Source: Acidobacteriaceae bacterium (GTDB lineage Bacteria; Acidobacteriota; Terriglobia; Terriglobales; Acidobacteriaceae). Taken from it: DNA of 64,000 bases. Position numbers and translations under genes: made by a program. This document shows positions 3,073-46,886 of the stretch, piece after piece. The notes under the pieces were generated by a model that was not told the origin of the DNA, made no database searches, and saw only the letters and a program-made list of their open reading frames with translations. The stretch lies in contig DASZBM010000010.1 in the NCBI GenBank assembly GCA_035944135.1, positions 434,001 through 498,000 on the forward strand, given 5' to 3'. Position 1 is the stretch's first letter; each line of letters starts with the position of its first letter.

Positions 3073-3140
3073 TGTGGGTGAGCACATAAGCTGAAAGTTT
3101 GGTCACATAAGCTGAAACTTCGTACCGCATAACCTGAAAT
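3073..3140 (+). repeat. Left transposon end with three putative TnsB-binding boxes
   Basis: The terminus TGTGGGTGAGCA is followed by three direct boxes: cacataagctgaaagttt (3083-3100), cacataagctgaaactt (3104-3120) and cgcataacctgaaat (3126-3140). They are spaced 21-22 bp apart. The same box occurs inverted at the right end. Multiple spaced sites per end are typical of TnsB recognition. Confidence 0.85.
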
Positions 3141-3240
3141 CGCTGAGCAAACGAACGCGGCTCCCCGGAAGGGGGGCCGTTTGACTGTTTGGGCGGTCGG
3201 ATCAGATCTGATCAGCTGGATGCCTAGTTCCTGTCGAACC

Positions 3241-3670
3241 GCCGCCGACGACACCGCCGCCGCGCCCGCACTCTCTGAGGAAGCCGCCGCCAAGCTCCAG
3301 AAGCTCGACGAGAAGCTCGGCCTCACCCCCTGCCTCATCCTCACCGTCAGCGAAAACGGCTATGGCAAGCGCACTGACGTCGACGCCTACCGGCTCCAGT
3401 CCCGCGGCGGCAAGGGCGTCATCAACATGAAGACCACCCCCAAGGTCGGCAAAGTCGTCTCCATCCAGCTCGTCGACGACACCACCGAGATAATGGTCAT
3501 CAGCCAGTTCGGCAAAATCATCCGCATTGACACCAAGAGTGTCCGCGCAGCCGGCCGCTCCACCTCCGGCGTCCGCCTCTTAAATCTCGAGGCCGACGAC
3601 AAAGTCGCCAGCGCCACCGTCATCCCACCCGAAGCCCCAAAAACCAACGGCGAAAACGGCACCCTCGTGC
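3241..3670 (+). pseudogene. gyrA: 3' fragment of DNA gyrase subunit A inside the left transposon end
   Basis: Translation shows the last part of a GyrA C-terminal beta-pinwheel: LILTVSENGYGKRTDVDAYR, SRGGKGVINMKTT, GKIIRIDTKSVRAAGR and SGVRLLNLEADDKVASA. The N-terminal breakage-reunion domain and most pinwheel blades are absent, so this cannot be a working gyrase subunit. An open frame runs from 3181 to 3765, but the family match starts near 3241 and fades after about 3650. The fragment lies about 100 bp inside the left end, just after the TnsB boxes. It looks like a piece of another chromosome captured with its downstream terminator. Confidence 0.85.
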
Positions 3671-3705
3671 AATCACTCGTTCAGCAAAGAACCTCAATAA
3701 ATACC

Positions 3706-3740
3706 AGAGGCTCGGACTTTAGTCTGAGCCTCTTTTTTTT
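3706..3740 (+). terminator. Strong intrinsic terminator after the gyrA fragment
   Basis: The 13-bp arms agaggctcggact and agtctgagcctct (one G-U pair) flank a two-base TT tip and are followed by a run of Ts. This is probably the original gyrA terminator carried along with the fragment. It would also block read-through from nrdJ into the cargo. Confidence 0.85.
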
Positions 3741-3808
3741 TGAAAGAGGGAAATTGACTCTTTAGTTAGAATTGGGTACGCCATCCACTTTGAATCACAG
3801 GGGCGCGT

Positions 3809-4816
3809 TTGAAGGTTCGTGCGTCAACACTAGATGACTTATTAAACGAGGTCTTCCGACGACTTATTTCGTCCGGGCGAGAGACTTCTCCGCGCAAGGG
3901 GAAGGCGCTCGAATTTACGGGTGCTGTCTTCGAGCTGACCAACCCGAGGGCAAGGATGAGCCGAACGGAAACGCGTGCCCGACTGTTCAGTTGGCTCGGC
4001 GAACTACTGTGGTATCTCGCTGGCAGCGACGAGCTTTCCTTCGTAAGGTACTACATCGAAAACTACAAGCCGGACTACCCAGGAGCCAAGCGTGTGAGGG
4101 CCGCTTACGGTCCGCGTATCCGCAGCGAGAAAAAACATCAACTGCGTTGGATCGTTCAACTCATACGGGAAAACTCAGACACACGTCGTGCGGTTATTCC
4201 GATCTACCACCCGAAGGACACTTACACCAATCTTCCAGAGGTTCCCTGTACTTGTACACTGCAGTTCTTGTTACGGGGTTCTCGGCTAGAATTGGTCACC
4301 CACATGCGTTCTAACGACGCTTACAAAGGGCTGCCCGGCGATATCTTCGCATTCACAATGATTCAGGAAATTGTTGCTCGAGCCCTAGGAGTGGAACTTG
4401 GTCGATACAAACATCTGGTTGGAAGCCTGCACCTCTATGTTGAAGACAGACGCAATGCGGAACGCTATTTGGCTGAAGGTTGGCAGCGAAAGATAACTAT
4501 GCCAATAATGCCGCTGGGCGATCCCTTTCCACAAATTGAAAGGCTTGTACGATTCGAACGTGCCACAAGACTGGGCACTCACGCGAAGATTCCTTCCGAC
4601 CTTCCGGAGTATTGGCAAGACCTCGCTAGATTATTAGCGATATTTCGCGCTGAAAAGGAGCAAAAACCCGCTGCGGAAATCCGCAAGATGCGTGAACGAA
4701 TACACTCAGACGCATATGCTCCATACATTGAAATGAGGAGGCGAAAAGCCGAAAAGTTTGAGCCCGTCGCGACGCAGTCAGACGAGCTCCCTTTTGACGA
4801 GGAGGCGCATGCGTAA
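3809..4816 (+). CDS. Thymidylate-synthase-family protein with Asp at the pyrimidine-selectivity position
   Basis: This 335-residue protein belongs to the ThyA/deoxypyrimidylate hydroxymethylase superfamily, which transfers a one-carbon unit from methylene-tetrahydrofolate to C5 of a pyrimidine nucleotide. ELLWYLAGSD (about 65-74), paired Arg (126-127), the nucleophile Cys147 in VPCTC, RSND (167-170) and the HLY triad (208-210) match thymidylate synthase. The usual Asn in GLPFN is Asp178 here (GLPGD). In this family Asn recognises uracil, whereas Asp is found in dCMP and CMP hydroxymethylases, so a cytosine nucleotide substrate is inferred. The start is TTG. The stop overlaps the next gene by 8 nt, so the two are cotranscribed. 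A role in making a modified base, or in recognising one, is inference. Confidence 0.8.
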   Translation: MKVRASTLDDLLNEVFRRLISSGRETSPRKGKALEFTGAVFELTNPRARMSRTETRARLFSWLGELLWYLAGSDELSFVRYYIENYKPDYPGAKRVRAAYGPRIRSEKKHQLRWIVQLIRENSDTRRAVIPIYHPKDTYTNLPEVPCTCTLQFLLRGSRLELVTHMRSNDAYKGLPGDIFAFTMIQEIVARALGVELGRYKHLVGSLHLYVEDRRNAERYLAEGWQRKITMPIMPLGDPFPQIERLVRFERATRLGTHAKIPSDLPEYWQDLARLLAIFRAEKEQKPAAEIRKMRERIHSDAYAPYIEMRRRKAEKFEPVATQSDELPFDEEAHA

Positions 4817-5753
4817 AGAGGACTTAGCATTTGCGAGCGCAACATATAGTCGCCTGGGCACCTTTGATCAAGGCATCCATGCGCTTCCGGGTATCTCGAC
4901 TAAAGACACGAGACGCACTTTAGTTTTTCAGATAGTTGAAAGCGTTCGGCGCATTCGCTTCGTGCAACAGGTATCGCAGCGGCCAATTGCTGCCTCACGA
5001 AAGGATCCATCGAGCGCGTATTTTGATCCAGTACGTGCAGCGATTCTCTATCACGCAACCGGAGATTTAGAGGAAGCATGCTGGCTAGTTTTCCTGTTTG
5101 TCCACTTCGGGAAAAACCTAAAAAGTGGCTACCAACTAATTGCGGACGTCTACGGAAGTCTCGGGCAAGGTAAAACGTGGACATGGAAGCGCGTCTCGGA
5201 TGATCCACTCGAATTCAGGCATTGGCTCGACAAACACCAAAGTGACCTTAAAAGCCAAGGAAATAAGCATCGCGGATTCGGAAATCACCGCAAGTACCAA
5301 AGCCTCCATGCATGGAAACAGACGGGGACCGGTGAAGCTGTTCAAAGCTATGTCACTTGGGTCAAGAGCGCGGGTGGTCACAAAAGCTTATTTGCGTCAG
5401 CAGTAAAGAAGGCCGGTGGCAATGCCGAACTGGCATTTGCCGAACTTTATCGCGCGATGAACGCAGTTCGTTCATTCGGCAGGACCGCCAAATTCGATTA
5501 CCTCGCGATGATCGGGAAAATCGGGTTGGCAGCTATACTCCCTGATTCAGTCCACTTCGTTGGAGCAACCGGGCCCGTGTCTGGAGCGAAATTGCTGTTC
5601 ACTGGAAATACCGACACCAAAATGTCGAATAAAAGACTGCAAGAACTCTCCGACTTGCTATCCAATCACTTGAAGGTCGACAAACAAGTGATCGAAGATA
5701 GCCTGTGCAATTGGCAAAAAAGCCCAACCGAGCCCGTATCATTCAGAGGCTAA
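4809..5753 (+). CDS. Alpha-glutamyl/putrescinyl thymine pyrophosphorylase-like protein (clade 3)
   Basis: The 314-residue product resembles the aGPT-Pplase clade 3 family, with the recognisable GNHRKYQSL segment near residue 160 and the motif RSFGRTAKFDYLAMIGKIGL after it. Relatives were predicted by comparative genomics to act with thymidylate-synthase and hydroxymethylase homologues in building hypermodified pyrimidines through a pyrophosphorylated intermediate. The ATG at 4809 has GGAGG just upstream and overlaps the stop of the preceding gene (ATGCGTAA), showing translational coupling. The 3' end overlaps the convergent ImmA/IrrE gene by 11 nt. No experimental function is known to me for this clade. 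Confidence 0.7.
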   Translation: MRKEDLAFASATYSRLGTFDQGIHALPGISTKDTRRTLVFQIVESVRRIRFVQQVSQRPIAASRKDPSSAYFDPVRAAILYHATGDLEEACWLVFLFVHFGKNLKSGYQLIADVYGSLGQGKTWTWKRVSDDPLEFRHWLDKHQSDLKSQGNKHRGFGNHRKYQSLHAWKQTGTGEAVQSYVTWVKSAGGHKSLFASAVKKAGGNAELAFAELYRAMNAVRSFGRTAKFDYLAMIGKIGLAAILPDSVHFVGATGPVSGAKLLFTGNTDTKMSNKRLQELSDLLSNHLKVDKQVIEDSLCNWQKSPTEPVSFRG

Positions 5754-6828
5754 AACTCGCCGCAGAATAATGAATCTTCAATTTGTTGAACAGTTTTGGC
5801 GAAATCCGGCCTCGATGCTGAAGCTGTCCCACTATGACGCCTGGCGAAACCCCACAGCGCCGCGCAAATCGCGCGATCGAGAATTGGTTGATCGGAAGAG
5901 TTAACAAAGCAGTCTCTCCCTGAGGTTCTAGGATCACGCGTTGTGCAAATTGATTCGCTTCAGTCTCCTGTTGCGGAGTAGAAGTTGATTCATGATCGAT
6001 GTGCGGTTCTTGGCTGTGTAGGATGAGGTGGGCCGCCTCGTGAAAAAATGAAAACCAAAATTGATCGTCCGATAAAAACCGGCCACTAAGCAAGAGAAGC
6101 GCCTTATCCCTCTCAAGCATGAACGTCGCACCGCTCGCTGCGCACCCGGTTATTGATCGCGTAACAACCACCGCCACACCGTGCTTTGCGCATTCCTGCT
6201 GAAGAGCAGCAATGAACCTTTTCGGATCGCCGATCTTACTAAGTGCTTTCAGCCCGGCCAGATTGGTAAGGAATTTCTCCCTATCCCAGGGCTCGCAAGC
6301 GATCTTTTCAGCGAGCAATTCTCCATGTCGGATCCACGCCACCGTCGTGGAAACGTCATTCTCAAAAGCTGCCGAGGTTCTGAACTTTGTCACACCCAGT
6401 CGAGCAAGGTAATTCTCGCGCCACTCTTGAACTGTCGCGATATCAAAATAATCGAGCAGCTCGGAAGGAACGTCATCCTTCGAACAGGGCTTAGGTAACC
6501 ACCCAGACTCGATCATTTTTTTAACCGGGAACGTCGCAACCCAGTTCCTCAAATCGGGCTCGGCTGCAGCTAGCTCCTTGAGACCATCCTGATATTGCTT
6601 CTGCCGCTCCAACCAGAAAGACGCTGTTGAGCCAACGAATGTGGCGAGACCCTTCGCAAGTTTGGGCGTGACAGGCAAAACACCCGCCAGAAGTTTCCCG
6701 GCATCGTCGTCAGCCAATCCGATTTGCTCGCGAAACGCGGCGAGACTCGTGCCTTTCGCATGTAGCACGGCGCGTATGGTTTCACCCGGAGGAGATACCC
6801 AATTCGGACGAAACGCAGCATTAGCCAT
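5743..6828 (-). CDS. HigA-type HTH fused to an ImmA/IrrE metallopeptidase domain
   Basis: The 361-residue protein has an N-terminal XRE/HigA-like helix-turn-helix region (about 10-75, PPGETIRAVLHAKGTSLAAF) and a C-terminal zinc-peptidase domain with the HExxH-like motif FHEAAHLIL. Downstream are NQFAQRVIL and a helical tail. Such HTH-ImmA proteins act as antitoxins or as proteases that cleave repressors. The HEAAH core keeps the Glu and both His residues, so activity is plausible. The gene overlaps the upstream RelE/HigB-like gene by 8 nt, forming a toxin-antitoxin-like pair. It converges on the pyrophosphorylase-like gene with a short overlap. Confidence 0.85.
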   Translation of the reverse strand: MANAAFRPNWVSPPGETIRAVLHAKGTSLAAFREQIGLADDDAGKLLAGVLPVTPKLAKGLATFVGSTASFWLERQKQYQDGLKELAAAEPDLRNWVATFPVKKMIESGWLPKPCSKDDVPSELLDYFDIATVQEWRENYLARLGVTKFRTSAAFENDVSTTVAWIRHGELLAEKIACEPWDREKFLTNLAGLKALSKIGDPKRFIAALQQECAKHGVAVVVTRSITGCAASGATFMLERDKALLLLSGRFLSDDQFWFSFFHEAAHLILHSQEPHIDHESTSTPQQETEANQFAQRVILEPQGETALLTLPINQFSIARFARRCGVSPGVIVGQLQHRGRISPKLFNKLKIHYSAASFSL

Positions 6829-7141
6829 TGCACCTCACCTCAAGGAGTTGGACTCCCGTCACACGACGCCAGTTGATCGTAGTCCCAAGAAGAGCCTCTC
6901 GGTCGGACGTGTGATTTGATTCGAAGATCAAGGAGCACCCATCACCTGCCGGAAGGGCGAAACGCGTCGGCTGCCCTGATATGGCTGACCAGAGGGGAAG
7001 CTCAGCTACGTTTCGGGCGGCCAAAACATCCGCGATACGAGCGCGTATAGCGTCACCGATCGCCTTGCCGTAGAGGTGTACCGGACGAGTCTTGCTAAGT
7101 GCCATAGTTCTCAGCGATCGTGTGGCGAAGGCAATTTCCAA
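6821..7141 (-). CDS. RelE/HigB-like toxin
   Basis: This 106-residue basic protein starts MEIAFATRSLRT and contains FALPAGDGCSLIFESNH and INWRRVTGVQLLEVR. The layout matches the small HigB/RelE-fold family often annotated as plasmid maintenance or killer proteins. Family members typically cleave mRNA on the ribosome. The predicted start is TTG at 7141, chosen because the MEIxF start is typical; no strong ribosome-binding site is seen. It is the first gene of a pair with the overlapping HTH-ImmA antitoxin-like gene. Confidence 0.7.
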   Translation of the reverse strand: MEIAFATRSLRTMALSKTRPVHLYGKAIGDAIRARIADVLAARNVAELPLWSAISGQPTRFALPAGDGCSLIFESNHTSDREALLGTTINWRRVTGVQLLEVRCNG

Positions 7142-7649: not shown

Positions 7650-8582
7650 TCACCTGAAGATTTCGTTTGCGTGATACTCGAGGTTCTCGTCGGTTGGCCT
7701 ATACGACGCTACCTCAGGCTCCCGAATCGGCTGGCCGTGAAGCCGATAGTATTCCTTGCCGTTGAAAAACTCTTCCTTGATCCTTGGGCTCACGACAACA
7801 CGACGGTCCGTGGGATCCACGGTAAGGTACCCTCCGTCGAAGAGGCGGTGCAGATCGCTTCGCATCAGGAGTCCATTGGACACTTCGTGGCGCTGGTGCA
7901 GTTTGAATGGTCGGATATGAGCGGCGTCGAGCACCGGCAGTGTCCGCTCCCCGGTTAGCGCACATCTGCGGTCGTAGGCGTCCGTCAGCACCACTCGGAA
8001 TAACCCCTGACCGAGTCGCGGGAGGACGATTTGTGGCGTGCCATGCCCGTGTGACGCGATCGCTGCTTCCGTAGCCAGTGCCTCGGGCATAGCTCGCGCC
8101 CTTAATCGCTGCTCAACCTCGTTCCACAGCCCTTGCCCGTTCCCCGCTTCCGCATCGTAGCCCTTGCCGCTGACGATCTGTGACGCGAAGTCTGGCGGGG
8201 ATGCGATCCAAAGCTCTCGCGGCCAGAAGAACGGCTCGGCCAGGAGGATGCATCCAATCTGAGGGTTGTCGTGTTGCGCTATCGGCTCGCGTCGATAATA
8301 AGCGATCCGGCTGCGCATTTCAGTCAGCGTCGTCACACCGTTGGATAGTCCGAACACCTCCCACGCGAGATTGACCGGCATCTGCTGGAACCGTGCAAAG
8401 AATCCTCCCCCGACGATGTAGTTCTCAGGTGAGTGGAGCTTGAAGAGAAACAGCTCGCCCGGGTTCAGGGCTTTGAAGGATGCCGTCGGAGACGGCCGCC
8501 AGAAATTGACCTCTTCGATGCCCGATTGGGACGAGAGGAGATCGAACCAATCCGGGTCGGTGATGCCGACGAAGATACGCAT
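7650..8582 (-). CDS. HNH endonuclease with N-terminal EVE/SRA-like region
   Basis: The 310-residue protein has a C-terminal HNH domain of the HNH_2 type: CALTGERTLPVLDAAHIRPF, then SNGLLMRSDLHRLFDGGYL (about 205-260), which supplies the metal-binding His and Asn residues. The N-terminal half (MRIFVGITDPDWFDLL..., with GELFLFKLHSPENYIVGGGFF) resembles a reader domain of the EVE/PUA kind, though this is less certain. Proteins of this layout are annotated as putative restriction endonucleases, often aimed at modified DNA. It lies 52 nt downstream of the PD-(D/E)XK-like gene on the same strand, probably in one operon. Confidence 0.8.
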   Translation of the reverse strand: MRIFVGITDPDWFDLLSSQSGIEEVNFWRPSPTASFKALNPGELFLFKLHSPENYIVGGGFFARFQQMPVNLAWEVFGLSNGVTTLTEMRSRIAYYRREPIAQHDNPQIGCILLAEPFFWPRELWIASPPDFASQIVSGKGYDAEAGNGQGLWNEVEQRLRARAMPEALATEAAIASHGHGTPQIVLPRLGQGLFRVVLTDAYDRRCALTGERTLPVLDAAHIRPFKLHQRHEVSNGLLMRSDLHRLFDGGYLTVDPTDRRVVVSPRIKEEFFNGKEYYRLHGQPIREPEVASYRPTDENLEYHANEIFR

Positions 8583-8634: not shown

Positions 8635-10065
8635 TCAGCTCCCGGCCACTTCTTGATACTCCTCGACGATGCTGTCGTTCATGTGAGCAAGATGTTCCAT
8701 ACTGGCGATCAGTCCTACACTTTCGTAGGAGATAAAGGTGCAACTCTTTGAAAGTGGTCCGCGTTCCAGGAGCGAGAAGACCGGCCTCTGCATCTCGCGA
8801 AAGACTTTCTCTCTCCGCTCATCCGGTGCAACGATGTGAAGACGGATGTCCATGTTGGGCTGAAGAGCGAGCAGATCCGCCATACGTAGCAGCCCGGAGT
8901 AGACGGCGGTCGTGTGCTCTACCTCAAACGCTCTGGCGATCCAACGACCCCGTAACCAAAGCACGTCGATTTGCTCGATCGTGTTTAGAGTCACTGTATC
9001 GTTATTCAGTGGCAAACTCTCTATCAGGGCTCCACGATCACGTTCGTCGAGCAACTCGGCGACGCGTCCCCTATCGCTTCTTGGAATCCATATCTTGAAG
9101 CCCAGCTTGATTCCAATCTTCGAGAGGCTCGATTGGATCTGGAATGATTGGCGTACCTCGGGTGCCTGGGGCTGAGCCTGCACCGGAGTGGCCACAAAGT
9201 GTTCAATTTCGTCTTCGTCTGTGGGAACTGTTACGGTGACTTCTCCCTCGCTTGTCTTTAGCTTTCGTTCGCTTGCCCACCGGTCACGCAAGGGAGCCTC
9301 GTAAAAATCGAGAATCTTGCCTGGGTGTTCCGTCGCCAAATTGTTACGAAGATTGAGTAGCGCGTCATCCAATTGCCGGTCGGACCAACCCGACATCTCT
9401 CTCGGTTGGGCAACACCGAAAGCAGCAAGGATGCTGACGCGGTCGTTGTTCGACGAGATTCGTTCAACCTTCTCCGGAAAGGCGAAGTACCTCAACATGT
9501 GCCGAAACTGGCGGCTTCCTTCTCGGGGAACACCGTTGATCCACGCGAAGAAGGAGTCGTAATCATTTAGCAGGGCTCGTTCTGCAGACGATCTCCTCTT
9601 TAGGTCACGCGCCAACTCGAGTAAGAATTCTAGTTCGGAGGGCCGGTAATTGTTGAACCCGGGCCCACCAGAACCGATCCCAACGAGAACATCGTCCTTA
9701 AGTAGCGGGTGAGCTGCCGGAATTGGCTCTCCAGATAGGTTCCATAGATCTGTAATCTGCTTGTGCTTTGTTCGTGCCTTCATATTGGAAGGGAACAGAA
9801 GCAGCGCCCAGAGCATCTCGGCGCTTAGCTGCTTCGCAGACGGCGATGCTTGCGCCATCTGACGCTTCAGCTTGGTCATGAAATCATCACCACTAAGGTC
9901 CGGGTGATCTACGAAGGCATGATAAACCTCATCTATATTCTCTTTGGTCCATAGGGCACGCCCATGTATAAAGACCGATCTGTCGTTGATCAGACAATCT
10001 TTGATCCATATTTCTGCGGCCGATAGAATAGGTGACGTGTCTCTCTCACAGTTGTAACGTGCCAT
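8635..10065 (-). CDS. Uncharacterised protein with C-terminal PD-(D/E)XK-like nuclease domain
   Basis: This 476-residue protein has a long helical N-terminal part with no motif that I recognise (segments such as HPLLKDDVLVGIGSGGPGFN). The C-terminal domain contains IDVLWLRGRWIARAFEVEHT and SGLLRMADLLALQPNMDIRL (about 360-410). The Asp followed by EVE is the pattern of a PD-(D/E)XK fold, and similar domains are found in McrBC-like restriction proteins. The start is ATG. It precedes the HNH gene and probably works with it. The pair is bracketed by inverted relics of one gene, which suggests it arrived as a cassette. Confidence 0.6.
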   Translation of the reverse strand: MARYNCERDTSPILSAAEIWIKDCLINDRSVFIHGRALWTKENIDEVYHAFVDHPDLSGDDFMTKLKRQMAQASPSAKQLSAEMLWALLLFPSNMKARTKHKQITDLWNLSGEPIPAAHPLLKDDVLVGIGSGGPGFNNYRPSELEFLLELARDLKRRSSAERALLNDYDSFFAWINGVPREGSRQFRHMLRYFAFPEKVERISSNNDRVSILAAFGVAQPREMSGWSDRQLDDALLNLRNNLATEHPGKILDFYEAPLRDRWASERKLKTSEGEVTVTVPTDEDEIEHFVATPVQAQPQAPEVRQSFQIQSSLSKIGIKLGFKIWIPRSDRGRVAELLDERDRGALIESLPLNNDTVTLNTIEQIDVLWLRGRWIARAFEVEHTTAVYSGLLRMADLLALQPNMDIRLHIVAPDERREKVFREMQRPVFSLLERGPLSKSCTFISYESVGLIASMEHLAHMNDSIVEEYQEVAGS

Positions 10066-10423: not shown

Positions 10424-11224
10424 CTACATCGTCGCACGTACACATACACCTTCGCGAACTAGCTCCGACAGGAATATCTCAGCTTGACGGGCGAGGGTCT
10501 CTGAGGTCAAAAGAACGCCCAACTCAATGTTCCGGTTTTGCGCCGCTTCAGTAAAGTTTGCCGACGATACGAACAGTTCCCGTTCATCGAGCACTACACA
10601 TTTAGCATGGAAGGCTATCGACGAACCAGCAACTGCTTCTAGAACCCGTCGATCATAGTAGATTTCAGGAAGTCGATGATTAGCAGGCCAATGGCGGATT
10701 CTAAAATCCTGTACAAAGTTCGTGACGGCTGAAGAGGTAAAGGGGATATCTGCGGGGCGAATAGCCAAATTCAGAAAGAGTCGAACTCGCAGGCTAGGGA
10801 TAGCTTCCATGCGCAATGCGAGCTCTTCAAAAATTTTCTTGCCCTGATGAACAGCATAGCCAGCTATGGTGACGCTGCTTCCCGCACGCCTAAAGAGATC
10901 GGTCACAACGACTCTTGTATCGCGGTGGTAGGCTCCAGACTCGACCGGTCCAGTCATGACCAACTGCACTAAATCTTCTAGCGGAGGCCTCGTTGCCAAT
11001 GACTCAAGGAGAACATCAATGCAGCTTGCAAGAGCCTCCGCGTTACAGCCTCGATCAGAGATTGTTTGAAGTGCAGTGGTCACATACTGAGCCGTGGATG
11101 CACCGACGATTCGTGCGACGGAGGAGAGCGCAAAAGGCGGAGACAAACGTTTAGAGCGCAGCGCATTAGCGATGCTTGTCAGGTCGCCCTGCCGGAGCTG
11201 TGTGAGCGTCTTGCCGGGATTCAA
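10424..11224 (-). CDS. drmC: DISARM protein DrmC, phospholipase-D-fold nuclease
   Basis: The 266-residue product has one PLD-type HxK motif, FHAKCVVLD, followed by FVSSANFTEAAQNRNIELG (about 204-235), the signature of PLD-family nucleases. The length and position at the end of a drmABC array match DrmC of DISARM. In published work on DISARM, DrmC was dispensable for protection. The start overlaps the stop of drmB by 4 nt. An N-terminal helical region precedes the catalytic half. Confidence 0.9.
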   Translation of the reverse strand: MNPGKTLTQLRQGDLTSIANALRSKRLSPPFALSSVARIVGASTAQYVTTALQTISDRGCNAEALASCIDVLLESLATRPPLEDLVQLVMTGPVESGAYHRDTRVVVTDLFRRAGSSVTIAGYAVHQGKKIFEELALRMEAIPSLRVRLFLNLAIRPADIPFTSSAVTNFVQDFRIRHWPANHRLPEIYYDRRVLEAVAGSSIAFHAKCVVLDERELFVSSANFTEAAQNRNIELGVLLTSETLARQAEIFLSELVREGVCVRATM

Positions 11225-20465: not shown

Positions 20466-20467
20466 CT

Positions 20468-24529: not shown

Positions 24530-24536
24530 AATAGAT

Positions 24537-34931: not shown

Positions 34932-35966
34932 TCAGCCACGCGCAAGGATCGTAACTCTGTAATCAGAGTAGAGGCTCTGATTCTCAAAGGTTTTGAGATG
35001 GAGTCGTGTACCCTTCGTGGCGATTCTCGCCATTCTATCCTTTATCGAGTCTCTATCCTCATCATTGAGAATTCCCGGACGTGCCTCAATGGATACCATC
35101 AAACCTCGGGACGTTCTGACTCCCTCCGGGCCTAAATGCGGGCTCGCACAAGCTGCATCGAACGCAGCAAAAAGCCCTTCGACGCCGTTCCCGTTTCGAT
35201 AACTGATCACGGAAGAACCACCCCCTCTCAGGACAGATCGCAGTTCTGTTGCGTCAATCCCTCGAGATCCCGACTTCGCGAGTGCAAATGTGACGACTCG
35301 GCATGTTTGGGCGACTGCTGCACAAAGCAAATCGCCCCTGTTATGTTTTCGAGGGAGGTGAACCTCGTGCTTAATCGCGTTCACAGGCATCTCAAACCCG
35401 ACATCTACCAGCGAGTCGAGCGACCTGTAGCCTTCAGTGTCCGGGCCGGTGGGTTTTATCGCAACGGTGAAGACACCTGCCTCGCGAAGCGCTTCTGCGA
35501 CGACGGAAGAAAGCCCCTGGTCGGATAGTGCATACAAATTGGTCAGGATGAACGCCACGTCCAAGCCAGAAACCAGATTGGCAATGTCGGACCTCCGGCC
35601 CTGCGCGGGGAGTTGAGCCTCTCCGATCGTTAATGGATACGAACCGTTCTTGGCAACCAATAGAGCATCTTCAGCACTAGAAAAGCGCAGGTAAGGCATG
35701 TTCTGCGCTATTGCAATTCGTTTGCATGGGTAGTTGAAGCTCTGAGCAACCCGATCCAGGTAGAACACGCCTGGGCCTCCAACACCTACGATTCCGACAT
35801 GAAGCCGCCCGTCAGAATGGAACCGGCTTCCGTATTCTTCGATGCAGGACTTTTGGTCGCGCCTCGGGGAGCATGCGCTTGGGACAGGCATGCTGGCTGC
35901 TGTCAAGGAAGACAAAAAGTAGAGAAATCTGCGACGGTTCACGGTTAATCCCTTAAGGCGTAGCAT
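34932..35966 (-). CDS. FtsZ/tubulin-like protein with Tat/lipoprotein-type leader and lost GTP loop
   Basis: The roughly 344-residue protein has the FtsZ-like first loop VGIVGVGGPGVFYLDRV (near 60), VVAEALREAGVFTVAI and a late VEGLFAAFDAA segment, matching the FtsZ N-terminal fold and start of its second domain. The tubulin signature GGGTGS/TG is replaced by LTNLYALSDQG, so normal GTP binding is doubtful. The N-terminus has NRRRFLYFLSSLTAAS and then a VPSAC lipobox-like site, implying Tat export and lipidation, which is very unusual for this fold. The ATG at 35966 follows GAGA. The UDG-like gene starts 50 nt downstream. Confidence 0.55.
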   Translation of the reverse strand: MLRLKGLTVNRRRFLYFLSSLTAASMPVPSACSPRRDQKSCIEEYGSRFHSDGRLHVGIVGVGGPGVFYLDRVAQSFNYPCKRIAIAQNMPYLRFSSAEDALLVAKNGSYPLTIGEAQLPAQGRRSDIANLVSGLDVAFILTNLYALSDQGLSSVVAEALREAGVFTVAIKPTGPDTEGYRSLDSLVDVGFEMPVNAIKHEVHLPRKHNRGDLLCAAVAQTCRVVTFALAKSGSRGIDATELRSVLRGGGSSVISYRNGNGVEGLFAAFDAACASPHLGPEGVRTSRGLMVSIEARPGILNDEDRDSIKDRMARIATKGTRLHLKTFENQSLYSDYRVTILARG

Positions 35967-36308
35967 CAATTCTCATTGTGCTATTAGCCTGCGACAGGAT
36001 GTGTCGCACGGCCAAAACGCACATCCCTGCGACGCAGCACCCCGCAAAAGGAGGTTCTGACCCACACAACAAACTGAGGACGACTGCCACGGAGGCTTCT
36101 CGGGGTAAGCCCATGCAGCGGCAACCGGCACAGGCAGATGCAAAGCATCTGGGTCCGGTGCGTCAGTCAATCCCATTGGCAAACGGCTTAACTGGAAGGG
36201 CTTTCCAGACAGGGAGGGGACCCGGAGTCGCGTGACTTGCACCGGAGGGGCACGCCCATCCCGCTTCAGAACGTGTTCGGGCTTGGAATAAAAGGTAGAC
36301 TCCAGCGA

Positions 36309-38802: not shown

Positions 38803-39418
38803 AGTGAAACAACAGGACTGGGTAGGCAGTCCCAGTCCAGGGCTGACGTCTTTATTAATCACACTTTTGAAGGGCGTCCTGTACCGCGATCAAGAATCCA
38901 TGCTTTGGAGCGCACTCCTCAATTTCCGATCGCAGGCGTCTGACTATGTAGGCCAGCTGGGGCTGGATCTGCTCCTTGATGAGGCGGAAGGCTATGCGTT
39001 CCTTCGCAGCAGGGCGGTCACGCCTGGTGAGGAGGAGAAAATCCCTCGCCTCATTGCACGTCGCCCTCTCTCATTTTATGACAGTCTTCTTCTCGCATTG
39101 CTGCGAAAGAAATTGGCCGAATTCGATGCCGTAGGTATCGAAAGCCGCCTCGTGCTCAAGCTGGACGAAATCCTGGATTTGATCCAGCTTTTTCTGCCCG
39201 AGCGGAGTGATGAAATAAGGCTTCACCAACGGGTAGAACAAAGTGCCCAGCGGCTGCAGGAGATGGGTTTCATGCGTAAGCTAAACTCCAGCAGCGAGCC
39301 TCCGACTTTCGAAGTACGTCGTGTTATCAAGGCATTTGTAGACGCGCAATGGCTGAGTGGTTTGGAAGATTCTCTTGCAAGCTACAGAGCCCATGCCATA
39401 GGACCGCAGACTAACTAA
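38795..39418 (+). CDS. jetB: Wadjet protein JetB (DUF4194, MukE-like)
   Basis: The 207-residue protein is of the DUF4194 type, with GLTSLLITLLKGVLYRDQES near the N-terminus, IARRPLSFYDSLLLALLRKK in the middle and LPERSDEIRLHQRVEQSAQR, EMGFMRKL toward the end, consistent with tandem winged helices of a KITE subunit. It starts with GTG preceded by AAGGAGAAGG, inside the jetA 3' end. It bridges JetA and JetC in the complex. Confidence 0.92.
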   Translation: MSEVKQQDWVGSPSPGLTSLLITLLKGVLYRDQESMLWSALLNFRSQASDYVGQLGLDLLLDEAEGYAFLRSRAVTPGEEEKIPRLIARRPLSFYDSLLLALLRKKLAEFDAVGIESRLVLKLDEILDLIQLFLPERSDEIRLHQRVEQSAQRLQEMGFMRKLNSSSEPPTFEVRRVIKAFVDAQWLSGLEDSLASYRAHAIGPQTN

Positions 39419-39434: not shown

Positions 39435-42400
39435 ATGGAAACAGTCGAGCAATCCATTCCATTTAGCGATTCGCCTTCCTCCACGGTGCCGCGCCTTGGA
39501 TATCGGCTGCAACATTTGGAAGTGCTGAACTGGGGCACGTTTGACCGGAAGGTCTGGACTCTGAAGCTCAACGGCAACAACACGTTGCTGACCGGCGACA
39601 TTGGCTCCGGGAAGTCTACCCTTGTCGACGCCGTTACGACACTGTTGCTGCCATCGAACCGCATAGCCTACAACAAAGCTGCCGGTGCAGAGAACAAGGA
39701 GCGCTCCCTTCGGACGTACGTGCTAGGGCACTATAAGTCGGAGCGCAGCGAAGAGACAGGCACTGCAAAACCAGTCGCACTGCGGAAGCATGGGAACTAT
39801 TCGGTGATCCTGGGCGTGTTTCGCAATGAGGGCTATGACGAAACCACCACACTTGCTCAAGTATTGTGGTTCAAGGACGCGCAATCACAGCCTGAACGGT
39901 TCTATGTCACCGCCGAACGCGAGCTTTCAATCGCAGGCGAGTTTGGAAACATTGGCCCGGATATGAGCCAGTTGCGTAAGAGGCTTCGCGGATTAGCTGG
40001 GGTAGAGATATATGACACGTTTGCGGCGTATTCCGCCTCGTTTCGTCGGCGATTCCATGTTTCCAGCGATCAGGCGTGGGAACTGTTCCATCAAACCGTA
40101 TCAATGAAATCTGTTGGAAATCTGACAGATTTCGTGCGGGAGCATATGCTACAGGCGCCCGAGGTCGCCGAACGGATCGCAGACCTGCTGGCGAATTTCG
40201 AAGATCTCACTCGGGCACATGCCGCCGTCGAAAAGGCGAAAGCGCAGGTTGATATGCTCGTGCCGCTAGTAGCGGATTGTGATCTGTATGAAGAGCAAAC
40301 AGCGGAACTGCGAATCCTAAAGGATTGTCGGGAGAATCTTAAGGCCTACTTTGCTCAGAGCAAGATTCAACTGCTTGACCAAAGACTGGAGCACCTGGCC
40401 CGTGAACTCGAGAAGTTGGCGGCGCGGAAGGAGAGGCGGCTGGAGCAGAAGGCGAGGGAGCTGGAACATGTGCAGCGCTTGAAGCAGGCTGTATCGGAGG
40501 AAGGAGGAGATCGACTTGAGCAAATCGATGTCGAACTTCGCGTCCAGGAAGTTGAGCGCTCCAAAAGGCAGAGAAGAGCGGACGGTTACGCGGAGAAGAT
40601 TCTTAGCCTGGGCGGCATAATACCGGCGGACGAAGCAGGATTTGAAGAGCAACAGGGCCAGCTCTCTGCGATGCGAGAACGGGCCATCGAAGAGGAAGCT
40701 CGCCTGCAGAACGAGTGGGTTGAACTCCAAATGGTTTTTCGAAAGGAATACGAGGAGCACCAGCACCTCAGCGAGGAGATCGCGAGTCTGCGCCTTCGGC
40801 CTAGTAATATTCCCGGGTTCTACGTCCAGATCCGAGCACGACTTGCCGATGCCCTCGGTGTTCCTCCGGACGATTTACCTTTCGCAGGAGAACTCCTGCA
40901 GGTGCGCTCAGGTGAAGAGCAATGGGAAGGCGCTCTGGAGCGTGTGCTCAATGGACTCGCTCTTTCACTGCTGGTCTCAGAAGAAAACTACGGATGTGTT
41001 TCGCAATGGGTAAACGACAACCACCTCAACGGCCGGCTAGTGTATCTTCGAACGCTTTCTGGTTGGCAGGTAAAGCGGACGGAAGCTCTGCAGCCGAACT
41101 CCTCGGTGAACAAGGTGTTGGTAAAGGCAAATACGAAATTCACCGCATGGCTGCAAACGAGATTGCGTGACAGGCATGATTACGCTTGTTGCGTAAGCCA
41201 GGATGAGTTCGTGCGGACTTCTCGCGGGATCTCTTTGACCGGACAAATCAAGGAGGACGGCACGCGTCATATAAAAGACGATCGTTTCCGTCTGGACGAT
41301 AGAAGCCGGTATGTACTCGGCTGGAGCAATGAAGCGAAGATTGGGGCTTTGGAGTCCAGGAAGGAAAGGTTGGAAAAACAGCTCCAGGACATCGGCCAGG
41401 AACTTTCAATCCTGGAATCTCGCCGCCGTACTGAGGGGCAAAAGAAGGAAGCCGTCGCCGCTTTGCGAGAGTTCAGGAGCTTTTCCGATCTTGATTGGCA
41501 GAGCTGCGAGCGGACGATTGGGCGGCTTAGAGACGAGAGGCTACGGCTCGAAAGTGCTAGCGATAAACTAGTAGAACTCCGAGGTCAGCTCTCTGATGCG
41601 GAGGCAATGCTGGAGGCCACAGGAGATGCTCTCCTGCTTTTTGAGCGCGAAATCGGTAAAGCAGAAACAAAGCGCGATTCTGCTCAAGGCCTCAAGGCAC
41701 AGGCCGAGTTACTGCTAGTTCAGATTGACGATGCACTGCGAGAACGTATCGAGAAAGTAATCGACGAGGTCATCGAAGATACGGCCTTAAGCGTCGAATC
41801 GTGCGACGGTCACGAGCACACGGTCCGAAATGAATTTCAGCGCCGTATGGACGCTGAAGCAAAACATCAGGGCAGACTCAAAGACCGCATCCTGCTTGCG
41901 ATGGAAAAGTTCAAGAGTGCATACAAGCTGGAGACGAATGACTTCGACGCCAACGTGGAGGCGCAAAGCGAATATCGCAAGTTCCTCGAACAGTTGCGAT
42001 TCCACGATTTACCGAAATTCGAAGAACGATTTCGGTTGGAACTCCGGACGAACTCCATCCGGCGGATTGCACTGTTCCACGCAAAGCTCCACGAAGAAGC
42101 TGAAGAGATCAGGACCCGTATCAAGCTTATCAACGATTCGCTCGTCGAGATCGAATACAACCGCGGCCGTTATATCGAACTGATCCAACAACCTACGTTC
42201 CATCCAGAAGTGCGTCAATTTCGAGACGACCTTCGGGCCTGCATAGACAATGAGATGCATGGTTCCACCGACGACCAGTATGCTGAAGCAAAATTCGAGC
42301 AGGTGAAGCGCATCCTGGACCGCCTACGGGGACGTCCCGAAACCGCTGAGCCCGATCGCCGGTGGAAGGACATGGTGACTGACGTTCGCAATTGGTTTCA

Positions 42401-42812
42401 GTTTTCCGCGAGCGAGAAATGGCTTGAGGATGATCGTGAGTTCGATCATTTTTCTGACTCGAGTGGCAAATCAGGTGGTCAGAAGGAAAAGTTGGCGTAT
42501 ACAGTCCTAGCCGCTAGTGTCGCCTATCAGTTCGGCCTGGAATGGGTCGAAGACCTCTCTCGCTCCTTTCGCTTTGTAGTAATTGACGAGGCGTTCGGTC
42601 GCGGATCGGATGAATCGGCAGAATTCGGACTCAAGCTGTTCGGCAAGTTAAACTTGCAGTTGATGATCGTTACGCCCTTGCAGAAAACGCATGTCATCGA
42701 ACCATATATATCGAGTGTCGCGTTTGTGGAGAACCGGAGCGGCAAGTCGTCGACCGTGCTCAACCTATCTATCGAGGAACATCGCAGACAGAAAGCCGCA
42801 CGTCTTTCATGA
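39435..42812 (+). CDS. jetC: Wadjet SMC-like ATPase JetC (MukB-like)
   Basis: The 1125-residue protein has an N-terminal Walker A LLTGDIGSGKSTLVDA (about 51-66), two long coiled-coil arms around a hinge near 460-600, and a C-terminal ABC signature SGKSGGQKEKLAYTV (about 1009-1023) with Walker B FRFVVIDEAFGRGSDES (about 1040-1056). This is the motor that extrudes DNA loops in Wadjet. It begins 16 nt after jetB and overlaps jetD by 4 nt (ATGA). Confidence 0.94.
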   Translation: METVEQSIPFSDSPSSTVPRLGYRLQHLEVLNWGTFDRKVWTLKLNGNNTLLTGDIGSGKSTLVDAVTTLLLPSNRIAYNKAAGAENKERSLRTYVLGHYKSERSEETGTAKPVALRKHGNYSVILGVFRNEGYDETTTLAQVLWFKDAQSQPERFYVTAERELSIAGEFGNIGPDMSQLRKRLRGLAGVEIYDTFAAYSASFRRRFHVSSDQAWELFHQTVSMKSVGNLTDFVREHMLQAPEVAERIADLLANFEDLTRAHAAVEKAKAQVDMLVPLVADCDLYEEQTAELRILKDCRENLKAYFAQSKIQLLDQRLEHLARELEKLAARKERRLEQKARELEHVQRLKQAVSEEGGDRLEQIDVELRVQEVERSKRQRRADGYAEKILSLGGIIPADEAGFEEQQGQLSAMRERAIEEEARLQNEWVELQMVFRKEYEEHQHLSEEIASLRLRPSNIPGFYVQIRARLADALGVPPDDLPFAGELLQVRSGEEQWEGALERVLNGLALSLLVSEENYGCVSQWVNDNHLNGRLVYLRTLSGWQVKRTEALQPNSSVNKVLVKANTKFTAWLQTRLRDRHDYACCVSQDEFVRTSRGISLTGQIKEDGTRHIKDDRFRLDDRSRYVLGWSNEAKIGALESRKERLEKQLQDIGQELSILESRRRTEGQKKEAVAALREFRSFSDLDWQSCERTIGRLRDERLRLESASDKLVELRGQLSDAEAMLEATGDALLLFEREIGKAETKRDSAQGLKAQAELLLVQIDDALRERIEKVIDEVIEDTALSVESCDGHEHTVRNEFQRRMDAEAKHQGRLKDRILLAMEKFKSAYKLETNDFDANVEAQSEYRKFLEQLRFHDLPKFEERFRLELRTNSIRRIALFHAKLHEEAEEIRTRIKLINDSLVEIEYNRGRYIELIQQPTFHPEVRQFRDDLRACIDNEMHGSTDDQYAEAKFEQVKRILDRLRGRPETAEPDRRWKDMVTDVRNWFQFSASEKWLEDDREFDHFSDSSGKSGGQKEKLAYTVLAASVAYQFGLEWVEDLSRSFRFVVIDEAFGRGSDESAEFGLKLFGKLNLQLMIVTPLQKTHVIEPYISSVAFVENRSGKSSTVLNLSIEEHRRQKAARLS

Positions 42813-44014
42813 GCTGGACGTCAGCAGAGGAGGTCCGCAAAAAGATTGAACGTCGCTGGAAACGCGGCGAGATCCTTCGTGCTCTCATAGGCTTGGAGAG
42901 TCCCTTCCCCCTGCGCCTCAGCTTGAGCGTGCCGTCGCCTCGAGAAATGGCTCTGGAATTTGGTCGAGCTCAAGAATGGATCACTTCTCTGCGGGCTCTA
43001 AGCGGCACTCGACTGGAGTGGCGCTCAATGCGCAGTCAGATTTTGGGACAACAGGAGATTCCGGCGGCCGTCTGGATTGACCGGGCGGAGGAAGCCGTTT
43101 TGTTCCTGGAGGTGCAGGACGATGCGAAATGCTTCCGCGCACTACAAGCCGCCACGACAGCACTTGTTCCGGAGGTTTTGCCTTGGCTTGGAGCGAACCC
43201 TTTCCAGGTGTTGGCACTCAACGCTGATTGGGGACTGATTCTGCAAGTTGTGGCATGGATGAAGACACGTTCGGCACAGAAAATCTATACAAGGCAAATC
43301 GATCTTCCTGGGGTCGATACGAAATTTGTCGAACTTCACGCCGGAGTGCTGGCAGAGCTATTCGAATTAGTTACAGATCATTCCATGGAGGGGATGCCAA
43401 ATGAGTCAACCGACTTCCATGCAAGATTCGGATTTCTGCGTGAGCTACCCCGCGTCCGTTTTCGCGTTTTGGATCCAGAAATTCGTTTCGCGCTTCTTCC
43501 TAATAAACCTGATGTCGAGCTAGATGCGGAAAGCTTCGCAGCCTTGCGACTACCGCTTAAACGCGTCTTCGTCACCGAAAACAAAACGAACTTCCTCGCC
43601 TTTCCGGAATTCGAAGACTCCATCGTTGTGTTTGGATCTGGTTATGGGATGAGAGCGTTTGGACTCGCGCAATGGGTTCATCAACTGCCGTTGTACTACT
43701 GGGGTGATATCGATACACACGGTTTCGCTATTCTCAATGAATTGAGAACTGTGTTCCCGCATGCTCAATCTTTCCTGATGGATCGTGAGACTCTATTCAA
43801 TCACCAAAATTCATGGACCACTGAGCTCACGCCGGTCAAGCACTCGCTGAAGCTTCTGAACCCGGACGAGATGGCACTATTCATGGAATTACAATCAGGC
43901 ATTCCACGCGAGGGAATTCGCTTGGAGCAAGAGAAAGTGCCCTTTTCGCGGTTGAAGAGCATTTTGGATTACCTACGCGAGAACGAAATGTTTGCGACAA
44001 TCCGCACTTCCTGA
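42809..44014 (+). CDS. jetD: Wadjet nuclease JetD (DUF3322/DUF2220, TOPRIM)
   Basis: The 401-residue protein has an N-terminal DUF3322-like helical part and a C-terminal TOPRIM-type domain: VFVTENKTNFLAFPEF with the acidic Glu near 257, VVFGSGYGM, and YYWGDIDTHGFAIL with the DxD pair near 299. JetD is the topoisomerase VI A-like subunit that cuts the plasmid. The key acidic residues are present, so the four-gene system looks intact. Confidence 0.93.
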   Translation: MSWTSAEEVRKKIERRWKRGEILRALIGLESPFPLRLSLSVPSPREMALEFGRAQEWITSLRALSGTRLEWRSMRSQILGQQEIPAAVWIDRAEEAVLFLEVQDDAKCFRALQAATTALVPEVLPWLGANPFQVLALNADWGLILQVVAWMKTRSAQKIYTRQIDLPGVDTKFVELHAGVLAELFELVTDHSMEGMPNESTDFHARFGFLRELPRVRFRVLDPEIRFALLPNKPDVELDAESFAALRLPLKRVFVTENKTNFLAFPEFEDSIVVFGSGYGMRAFGLAQWVHQLPLYYWGDIDTHGFAILNELRTVFPHAQSFLMDRETLFNHQNSWTTELTPVKHSLKLLNPDEMALFMELQSGIPREGIRLEQEKVPFSRLKSILDYLRENEMFATIRTS

Positions 44015-44424: not shown

Positions 44425-44436
44425 CGATCCTTCAAA

Positions 44437-46008
44437 ATGGCAACTGATTTGTTACCAATCCGAGCTTACTGGGCGCGGCCAACTGCGATTACGAGCGCGG
44501 ACCAACCGCTTGCCCCAATCCTTGGAATGCTCCGCTACCTACGCAGCAACCAGTGGATGGTGCTCTATAGAGAGCGGGGCAGTGAGATTACTGGCTACTT
44601 CCCGTTGAAGAAGGCCGAAATCCAAGAAAGAACAAGAGGGGCAAACCCAATCCTCCTCGCGTCAGAGCTGCTCGAATTACCGCGCGAAGGCGCAGCACCG
44701 GTAGAACGGCGGACTTCGAATTTGGAGCCACAACGAGGTCCGTTTCCAGAACGACAGCGGCCCGTACTGCTTGATGAAAGCGGGGCGGTGATTGGGATTG
44801 GTGTTGCGAGGCACGATATTACCCGAACTGCTCGGAGAGCTCTTCGTCACGTGGACGAGGAGTGGCCGGAGATTAGGTATCACGCAGAACGAATGTTGGC
44901 TCCTACGAAGAAAAGCGACGTCCAGATCCATCATGTCAGGAGTGACTTCGCACCTGAACCGAAGTTGAGGCGTTCGGAGACTCACCAGCCGATTGCCAGA
45001 ACCGCACCGCCTGAGGCAGATGAACCTCCTCTCGAGCTTGATGAGACGATCATTCCTGTGTTTTTCGGGACTGACCGTCAAGCAACGGAGACGAGACAAG
45101 GCGACTTGAAGTTCTCAGGAGAACGTTCGAAACGAGGTGAGGTCACACTCGGAATATGCTCAGTAAGCATTCCGCCAATGCACAGACTTGGAAAGCTCGA
45201 AAGGCCAGCTTGGTGGAAGTTCTGGACGAGTGCGCGTCGTGGAGAACACGTCGTCCTGCTGAGCACGACTTCATTGGGGGCAGCAACGTTCTTCAAGGAA
45301 TTGAAGAAGGCGGTCCACCAGCCAAAGAGTGCTTTTGTATTTATTCACGGCTATAACGTTGCGTTTGACACGGCGGCGATGCGTACCGCCCAGCTTGCAC
45401 TCGATTTGCAATTTCCAGGTGCTCCGATCATGTTCAGCTGGCCCTCCAAGGGTGGAGTGGCCAACTATCCGTCCGACGAGGGATCGAACGAGTGGGCTAG
45501 ACCACATTTGAAGCAGTTCCTAAACCAGCTACGGAATCGAGCTGACGCCGATCAAATTCATCTGATTGCCCATAGCATGGGCAGTCGGGCTCTACTGTCA
45601 GTCCTTCAAGAGCTTAGCGGCGGACCCAAGTTCGAACAGCTAATACTTGCAGCTCCTGACGTGGACGCGGGTATCTTTCGGCAATTGGCCTTGCAACTGC
45701 CGGCGCTATCGAATCGCGTAACGTTGTACGCGTCATCAACAGATAAAGCGCTGGCATTGTCTAAACGGATTCACGAGTATGCCCGGGCCGGGGAAGCCGG
45801 CGAAAATATTCTTGTACTAAAGGGATTGGACACAATAGACGCGTCCACAGTGGACACCGACTTCCTCGGCCACAGCACGTTTGCGCAAGAACGGACTCTG
45901 CTCACGGACATCTTCAACCTGATCACCCACGGACACGAGCCAGCAAGCCGCTTCGGACTGACTCGGAAGCCCCACAATGGCGGTTACTACTGGTCCTTCC
46001 GGAGTTAA
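44437..46008 (+). CDS. DUF900-type alpha/beta hydrolase with N-terminal extension
   Basis: In the 523-residue protein the C-terminal two-thirds are a DUF900 hydrolase: VFFGTDRQATETRQGDL (about 205-225), FIHGYNVAFDTAAMRTAQL, MFSWPSKGGVANYPSDEGSN, the nucleophile elbow IAHSMGSRAL (Ser near 381), LAAPDVDAGIF for the acid, and a late GHSTF His. The N-terminal 190 residues are charged and unlike a signal peptide, so a cytoplasmic enzyme is likely. It lies between Wadjet and the right end of the transposon. The substrate is unknown; lipase- or esterase-type effectors occur in defence loci. Confidence 0.8.
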   Translation: MATDLLPIRAYWARPTAITSADQPLAPILGMLRYLRSNQWMVLYRERGSEITGYFPLKKAEIQERTRGANPILLASELLELPREGAAPVERRTSNLEPQRGPFPERQRPVLLDESGAVIGIGVARHDITRTARRALRHVDEEWPEIRYHAERMLAPTKKSDVQIHHVRSDFAPEPKLRRSETHQPIARTAPPEADEPPLELDETIIPVFFGTDRQATETRQGDLKFSGERSKRGEVTLGICSVSIPPMHRLGKLERPAWWKFWTSARRGEHVVLLSTTSLGAATFFKELKKAVHQPKSAFVFIHGYNVAFDTAAMRTAQLALDLQFPGAPIMFSWPSKGGVANYPSDEGSNEWARPHLKQFLNQLRNRADADQIHLIAHSMGSRALLSVLQELSGGPKFEQLILAAPDVDAGIFRQLALQLPALSNRVTLYASSTDKALALSKRIHEYARAGEAGENILVLKGLDTIDASTVDTDFLGHSTFAQERTLLTDIFNLITHGHEPASRFGLTRKPHNGGYYWSFRS

Positions 46009-46211
46009 TTGCGATCACAAACGGCAACGGTCGGTATCGTGTGTTCCATTTTCCTTGCGATACGCCATGGGTGGGGTATAGCTCTGCCGAAAGCTGTTGC
46101 CCATGAACCGTAACGGCTGAATTGCCTCCGTGGTTGGTGGCCACATCCGCCGTGCCCTTCCCCGTTCTTGCTGATCCGGATGGTAGATTACGGAAATATT
46201 GGACTTCTTGT

Positions 46212-46652
46212 ATGAATGTGGTTTCGAAATCGGTGCTATTGTCGACATTCGCCGAAGAGATCGGGCAGAAGGTCGGCCGCCGTACTATCAGCCAACTCCA
46301 GCGCTTACGTGACGGAATGCAGTCCGGCGATGATTCGGTTCTTGCAAACATCTGGGATGAGGTTTGCGTTCAGGCCCAACGAGAGGAATCTGTCTCCTGG
46401 GACCTCTATCTCGACCTGATCAGGAATTTGATTGAGCAGCAATTGTCCAAGCTGAAGCCTCATGAAGTTGGGGCTTTATGGCTACAAACACCCGAGGGGG
46501 AGCTCTGGTCCGAAGAGAACCATCGCGCCGGCGAGGGCTCGATTCTCCTGGAGGATGTCGTCGAACATGTGCTCGCACGATATGTTCTGAGCGCCGCGTG
46601 CGATTGGGACAATCCGAGGATCAGAAAGTACAAGGAGAGCGAGCTGTATTGA
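46212..46652 (+). CDS. Hypothetical protein, last gene before the right transposon end
   Basis: The 146-residue acidic protein starts MNVVSKSVLLSTFAEEIGQK and contains helical segments such as LYLDLIRNLIEQQLSKLKPH and ILLEDVVEHVLARYVLSAAC. I recognise no family. The ATG at 46212 is chosen over the open frame from 46122 because the upstream residues are low-quality. It ends about 95 bp before the first right-end TnsB box. Confidence 0.5.
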   Translation: MNVVSKSVLLSTFAEEIGQKVGRRTISQLQRLRDGMQSGDDSVLANIWDEVCVQAQREESVSWDLYLDLIRNLIEQQLSKLKPHEVGALWLQTPEGELWSEENHRAGEGSILLEDVVEHVLARYVLSAACDWDNPRIRKYKESELY

Positions 46653-46746
46653 TGACTGGGTACGGAGCATCCTGCGCAGCAACGCGCGTGTCACATGTAA
46701 GTCCTTTTTATTGAGTAGCATGCAGCATGGCGGCAATCGGTCGTGC

Positions 46747-46886
46747 GGAAACTTTCAGCTTATTCGGCCATCACGGCTGAAACTTTCGCTTTATGGGGTA
46801 TGCCCGGTTTCAGTTTATGCGCTCCCCTCTGCTCTAAGCGACTGATTCCACGTCGCTGGAAGTTTCACCTTATCTGCTCCCCCACA
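46747..46886 (-). repeat. Right transposon end with four putative TnsB-binding boxes
   Basis: Inverted boxes are seen at 46747-46763 (gaaactttcagcttatt), 46780-46797, 46805-46822 (ggtttcagtttatgcgct) and 46859-46877 (gaagtttcaccttatctgc), followed by the terminus ctcccccaca. Read inward from the edge the sequence begins TGTGGGGGAGCAGATAAGGT, closely matching the left terminus. The unequal number and spacing of boxes at the two ends (three versus four) fits the asymmetric ends of Tn7 relatives. Confidence 0.85.

Follow-up and report, generated by a model that had tools for sequence, protein, structure and literature searches.

A 64,000-nucleotide stretch of a genome assembly from an Acidobacteriaceae bacterium (GCA_035944135.1, contig DASZBM010000010.1, positions 434,001 to 498,000; hereafter the window) holds a 43.8-kb element at positions 3073–46886 that is very probably a bounded Tn7-like transposon carrying full-length class 1 DISARM and type I Wadjet systems, likely placed there through recognition of the 3' end of nrdJ by its protein TniQ1. 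The nrdJ gene (271–3045, plus strand) is a host gene outside the element and encodes a class II (B12-dependent) ribonucleotide reductase (RNR), with matches above cut-off to the NCBIfam models NF005122 and TIGR02504. A more general point, absent from a preliminary description of the window, is that Tn7-like elements have repeatedly landed behind nrdJ. The gene is likely a widespread, previously unnoticed landing site for mobile immunity, and one likely read by a single branch of TnsD proteins, as far as the sequences tell. On balance we favor the view that the nrdJ 3' end is a cross-phylum attachment site (attTn-nrdJ) with its own TnsD lineage, a landing strip on which defense packages arrive, stack, and decay, and on which some elements, as in one relative (G161), carry a duplicate nrdJ tail as the target for the next arrival.

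Boundaries of the element and its insertion site

Tn7 has TGTG ends and is flanked by a 5-bp duplication of its target. The left terminus of the element reads TGTGGGTGAG and the right terminus CTCCCCCACA (TGTGGG...CCCACA), and copies of GCTTC lie immediately outside them, at 3068–3072 and 46887–46891. Three boxes in the left end (3084–3099, 3105–3120, and 3127–3142, plus strand) and four in the right end (starting at 46750, 46781, 46805, and 46860 and spanning 46750–46875, minus strand) are presumed TnsB sites, and the two arrays are in inverted orientation. A search of the window with a 16-mer, allowing up to four mismatches, returned 10 matches, namely the seven end boxes and three scattered singles. 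The 11-mer ATAAGCTGAAA at two mismatches was observed 16 times against 11 expected, which is not unusual, as 11 of 100 shuffles reach that count; it is the clustering of boxes at the element ends that carries the weight. Within the whole genome (4.43 Mb in 10 contigs), the exact 11-mer occurs four times, three of them at the ends of the element.

If the element and one copy of GCTTC are removed, the predicted empty junction reads ...GAGACGCGCTTCGCGCAAAACC... and is followed by a terminator-like hairpin. The preliminary description had put this junction forward as its check, and the one-copy junction outscored the joins with two copies or none in all seven aligned relatives (G016, G010, G022, G095, G290, G329, and G524), narrowly in G016 (25 versus 24); these relatives were picked for visibly alike flanks, most other flanks being too diverged to judge. 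The insertion point lies between the nrdJ stop codon, 27 bases from the left end, and a hairpin at 46903–46927 (flagged on the minus strand, with a near-perfect stem on both) that is presumably the native nrdJ terminator, cut off by the element; similar hairpins stand directly behind empty sites. We propose the 3' end of nrdJ as the attachment site. A DUF4238 gene adjoins the right end on the outside; the listed open reading frame (ORF; 46743–47879) starts inside the element, whereas the gene itself probably begins near 46944. The next gene in G016 is also DUF4238-like, at only 26% identity over 118 residues.

Transposition genes

The genes tnsA, tnsB, tnsC, tniQ1, and tniQ2 are intact, overlap, and form one operon on the plus strand in the middle of the element. 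They encode TnsA (24537–25307; candidate E, D, and ExK residues), the DDE transposase TnsB (25259–27295; D272, D357, and E393), the TnsC/TniB AAA ATPase (27285–28298; Walker A motif GESGTGKT), the 640-amino-acid putative TnsD-like target selector TniQ1 (28295–30217), and the 297-amino-acid TniQ2 (30199–31092), that is, the TnsA, TnsB, TnsC, and TniQ/TnsD proteins that identify a Tn7-like element. E393 of TnsB is absent from the list of invariant residues of an eight-row alignment. With these genes, with TGTG ends bearing inverted arrays of TnsB-type boxes, and with a 5-bp duplication matched by empty sites, region 3073–46886 is, judged from its sequence, a bounded Tn7-like transposon, as the preliminary description had said in giving the same boundaries, and would move as one unit by cut-and-paste.

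The predicted structure of TniQ1 (mean predicted local distance difference test score [pLDDT] 80, predicted template modeling score 0.56) was compared with solved structures using Foldseek. Its core matched the TniQ of PseCAST (2.6e-7) and that of Tn6677 (3.2e-7), its match to TnsD (8v32) was weak (8.1e-3), and more helices lie behind the core. A profile of the TniQ1 family gave, for the region behind the core, weak matches to helix-turn-helix proteins of the excisionase (Xis)/BldC type (4j2n, E 0.0019; 6amk, E 0.017). TniQ1 looks TnsD-like.

DISARM and Wadjet in the cargo

The class 1 DISARM set is complete, and profile coverage indicates full-length proteins. It is encoded on the minus strand and consists of drmC (10424–11224; E 6.5e-83; HxKxxxxD motif HAKCVVLD), drmB (11221–13056; E 9.8e-80), drmA (13056–16433; E 2.5e-285; GGGKT), the methyltransferase gene drmMI (16443–20609; E 0; NPPF), whose true start is probably within the ORF, and drmD (20468–23680; E 0; GLGKT and DEAH). 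The type I Wadjet set, on the plus strand, is likewise complete and full length by profile coverage: jetA (37345–38802; E 1.4e-181), jetB (38795–39418; E 3.7e-72), jetC (39435–42812; E 0; Walker A motif GDIGSGKS), and jetD (42809–44014; E 1.5e-128). The helicase, HxKxxxxD (HKD-type), NPPF, and Walker motifs are present in these proteins, and the immunity that the two systems would confer may be transferable. The preliminary description had named both systems, together with nucleases, and all are there, the latter as an HNH endonuclease, a type II restriction-enzyme-like protein, and a DEDDh exonuclease.

The position of the tns operon in mid-element suggests a composite island, in which a smaller Tn7-like unit was joined by another, nested mobile element that brought DISARM or Wadjet. 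The left end also contains a captured 3' tail of gyrA (3241–3671, plus strand), about 95% identical to pieces of the host gyrA, which suggests at least one foreign capture. Against this history, no further cluster of end boxes lies in the interior, where the box search matched only two isolated sites, and the proteins scanned with Pfam include no integrase of the tyrosine or serine type. We rejected a nested second element on the lack of internal end arrays, and consider a composite origin unlikely, if the least unlikely of the alternatives; such an island would, moreover, still move as one unit now.

Pieces of the gyrA tail occur elsewhere in the genome, at C2:1-273, C4:1-177, C7:1-273 and 530-733, and C8:283179-283340. 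Four contigs end or begin within this same tail, indicating several gyrA tails in the genome.

Tn7-like ends behind nrdJ in the family

A set of 117 nrdJ 3' flanks was gathered, 107 of them distinct, from 60 short stretches, 56 of 61 larger loci (the end of the gene being unmatched in the other five), and the window; it includes three loci (L126, L128, and L129) fetched for their tniQ hits. A flank was scored as bearing a Tn7-like end if it contained a TGTG 17–50 nt past the stop codon and at least two repeated 12-mers spaced 19–25 nt apart (criterion A), or by a motif-based criterion (B). Ends were found in 15 of the 107 flanks by A, in 13 by B, and in 17 by either, at 17–44 nt; without the window and the three loci fetched for tniQ, 14 of 103 flanks bear them. 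Thirty rounds of mononucleotide shuffling gave a mean of 0.07 and a maximum of 1 for A and 0 for B, and none of the 107 flanks shifted 250 nt further had a Tn7-like end. The nrdJ site has been used often. The gyrA tail at 3241–3671 raised gyrA as a second attachment site, which was rejected, as ends were found in none of 29 gyrA flanks from relatives.

Stacked ends occur in the genome G161, which has three left ends behind one nrdJ (C34:121219, 120890, and 106652). The left end of its first element contains a copy of the nrdJ tail (GSCFSCPCCGGTSGCS-stop), the second left end lies 28 nt behind this copy (L093, G161:C34:120890-121250), and the third lies 5 nt behind a right end. In G014 (L073, about 2975–3411), a remnant of about 440 bp resembling a miniature inverted-repeat transposable element, with left and right box arrays, sits between nrdJ and gyrB, and in G035 left boxes alone are retained behind nrdJ. 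Besides the genome of the window, 16 genomes bear such ends, and three of them (G161, G435, and G422) have relatives of TniQ1.

Elements beyond the family and the TniQ tree

A scan of genome contigs with the single TnsB sequence gave no match, and an alignment-based TnsB scan gave 14 loci, two of which were those of G422 and G435 again. A plasmid search turned up TnsC-like proteins in 216 records, every one below 60% identity and the top-ranked at 38%, and thus no close copy on a plasmid. Relatives of TnsB in named records led to 12 further genomes, eight of which, mostly Proteobacteria, have a Tn7-like end behind an RNR gene: Undibacterium, Mitsuaria, a member of the Rhodocyclaceae, one of the Methylococcaceae, one of the Woeseiaceae, two other Proteobacteria, and, loosely, Cohnella. 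The looser end test used here scored none of the 29 gyrA flanks and 3 of 580 shuffles. RNR class was assigned for two of the eight, Undibacterium and Mitsuaria, whose genes match above cut-off as adenosylcobalamin-dependent. No Tn7-like end was found behind the RNR gene of Polynucleobacter or MAG45; WY1 had a weak match to another RNR, and in bog382 the end of the gene was beyond reach. Undibacterium carries a whole 17.8-kb element (about 4042–21800 of L193) with a terminator-like hairpin behind it, and its two TniQ pieces are probably one split gene. An end and tns genes share a single contig in the window, G161, G435, Undibacterium, Mitsuaria, and the Woeseiaceae genome. The proteobacterial ends lie either 11 nt (L253, L255, and L269) or 26–34 nt (L251, L254, L268, and L270) past the stop codon, which may reflect two classes of target recognition that differ in spacing.

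A tree of 22 TniQ rows places the 11 nrdJ-site elements, represented by 15 rows, in one set with Polynucleobacter (support 100/100), and G010, G457, G541, and MAG45 lie outside it. The tree needs two label changes, compared with a mean of 5.3 for shuffled labels, and none of 500 shuffles was as low.

Weight of the evidence for the proposed recognition of nrdJ

A number of observations weigh against the reading proposed here. The end criteria were fixed after the flanks had been inspected, and because they were chosen post hoc, the controls carry the weight. Matching 5-bp duplications were looked for at the G161 ends and none was seen, and the Undibacterium element has no perfect one. TniQ1 relatives occur in just 9 of 250 family genomes. 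A TniQ-family search of the remaining 13 end-bearing genomes found none in 12 and a single one in G205, on a contig apart from nrdJ. With 12 of 13 lacking TniQ, the majority of nrdJ-site ends probably represent relics or short copies that are not autonomous, and these are not assignable to the lineage of TniQ1. There are at least two box types among the ends. End and tns genes are unjoined in five of the 11 elements in the tree, in G422 and in the Rhodocyclaceae, C21, Methylococcaceae, and YS4 genomes, for which last four no overlap joining the two was found. In Cohnella the end qualifies only at 48 nt, and the TniQ is not among the rows of the tree. The Polynucleobacter TniQ falls inside the nrdJ set on a long, unsure branch even though its nrdJ flank is empty. 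Finally, binding by TniQ1, homing, and transposition are themselves steps that we infer from sequence.

Some of these points would fit a Tn7-like element for which nrdJ is a passive, safe hotspot, its sequence being read by no protein: the several end types with differing boxes, the stop-to-end distances of 11 to 48 nt, and the present absence of TniQ from most end-bearing genomes. A passive hotspot is nevertheless improbable, given that none of 29 gyrA 3' flanks bears an end, that the same address is used in Proteobacteria, and that the TniQs of nrdJ-site elements cluster, whereas those of elements elsewhere mostly do not. An origin as a CRISPR-associated transposon (CAST) remnant, in which TniQ2 once worked with a lost Cascade in RNA-guided targeting, was rejected as highly improbable because no cas effector family matched among the scanned proteins of the element (models labeled CAS-associated were matched only by the DEDDh exonuclease and the WYL protein), although the solved TnsB closest to ours is that of the type I-F3 CAST Tn6677 (7.5e-62) and CASTs with pairs of a large and a small TniQ exist according to the available text of PMC10293859, which also reports that one branch of the dual TniQ-TnsD transposons is mostly devoid of Cascade. 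Tn6677 and PseCAST resemble the element in supplying the nearest solved TnsB and TniQ, and differ in their cas effector genes, which were not found here.

For recognition of nrdJ by TniQ1, the following sequence of events may be envisaged. A C-terminal array of helix-turn-helix motifs in TniQ1 would bind the conserved codons for the zinc ribbon with which nrdJ ends. TniQ1 would then recruit TnsC, which would direct TnsA and TnsB to excise the element and paste it about 27 bp beyond nrdJ, which would itself stay intact. TniQ2 may open a second route to a target or may not be needed. In this manner, immunity against phages (DISARM and nucleases) and against plasmids (Wadjet) would arrive as a single package at a conserved site where insertion does no harm.

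Other cargo and conserved modules

Behind the gyrA tail, the left part of the element encodes a thymidylate-synthase-like (TS-like) protein (3809–4816, plus strand), whose closest solved relative is CMP 5-hydroxymethylase; a protein of aGPT-PPlase clade 3, of the amino acid:DNA transferase family (4758–5753, plus strand); an M78 (IrrE-like) metallopeptidase with an HEAAH motif, similar to PD-Lambda-2_B (5743–6828, minus strand); and a 106-amino-acid ORF without a family match (6821–7141, minus strand). The last two make up what the preliminary description had called a toxin-antitoxin-like pair. The module from the TS-like gene to the M78 gene (3809–6828) has the same layout in G170 (L272, G170:C161), with identities of 74%, 70%, and 69%, and the aGPT-PPlase protein was found in two of the 297 genomes sampled from the phylum, one of the two being the genome of the window. 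A second module, on the minus strand, consists of a WYL-domain regulator (33219–34181), a uracil-DNA-glycosylase (UDG) superfamily protein (34189–34887), and a divergent FtsZ-like protein (34932–35969). Its order is the same in G035 (L237, G035:C73), with identities of 40%, 43%, and 79% for the FtsZ-like, UDG-like, and WYL proteins. In a search of solved structures, the aGPT-PPlase protein gave nothing useful and the UDG-like protein only noise; the latter was settled by fold, the best match of its model (pLDDT 92.2) being a family 4 UDG (8.6e-7). A role of these modules in defense by base modification or base excision would be a guess.

The remaining cargo consists of the HNH endonuclease (7650–8582, minus strand), the type II restriction-enzyme-like protein (8635–10065, minus strand), a winged-helix-turn-helix-like protein below the Pfam cut-off (23797–24585, minus strand), the DEDDh/RNase T-type exonuclease (31262–31927, plus strand), a 246-amino-acid protein without a match (32059–32799, minus strand), a DUF900 alpha/beta-hydrolase (44437–46008, plus strand), and a 176-amino-acid protein (46122–46652, plus strand) for which a PADLOC scan, the only one made, gave no match.

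Relation to known systems and significance

The element shares TnsA, TnsB, TnsC, a large and a small TniQ, and insertion just behind a conserved gene with Tn7 and with the dual TniQ-TnsD transposons, as the latter appear in the available text of PMC10293859. It differs in its address, the nrdJ 3' end, the words "ribonucleotide" and "gyrA" having no occurrence in the main text of that paper. There, Faure et al. assign homing to the large TnsD and pair the small TniQ with another selector; Tn7 itself inserts behind glmS (PMC2918618, in the part available). Defense cargo in Tn7-like elements, with Acidobacteria among the hosts and with table entries for Wadjet JetD (34) and ImmA (295), is documented in the accessible portion of Benler 2021 (PMC8649781), in whose main text DISARM has no occurrence, whereas the present element combines class 1 DISARM with Wadjet. 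Two further papers (PMC10121019 and PMC10270631) contain DISARM together with Tn7-like or Tn7 terms, as a co-occurrence of terms only. The DefensePredictor study (PMC13092281), in the text available, lists thymidylate synthase among newly validated defense domains and aGPT-PPlase as predicted and untested; in the element, the TS-like and aGPT-PPlase clade 3 genes differ in adjoining an M78 gene, in a layout kept in G170.

A literature search, which covered neither supplements nor subscription papers, found no paper combining "ribonucleotide reductase" with "Tn7-like"; the three papers pairing nrdJ with Tn7 concern other subjects by their titles and the starts of their abstracts, and none of the literature matches listed presents nrdJ as a Tn7-like target. 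The nrdJ address is provisionally new. If the address is as we propose, a conserved and predictable insertion site would join those known for Tn7-like elements, inspecting the region behind nrdJ would be a way to find mobile defense islands and their relics, and a TnsD that targets a widely shared metabolic gene, as a new address, would be open to study. Class 1 DISARM and Wadjet are packed here within one bounded element, and the TS-like/aGPT-PPlase/M78 and FtsZ-like/UDG-like/WYL modules are candidate immunity systems.

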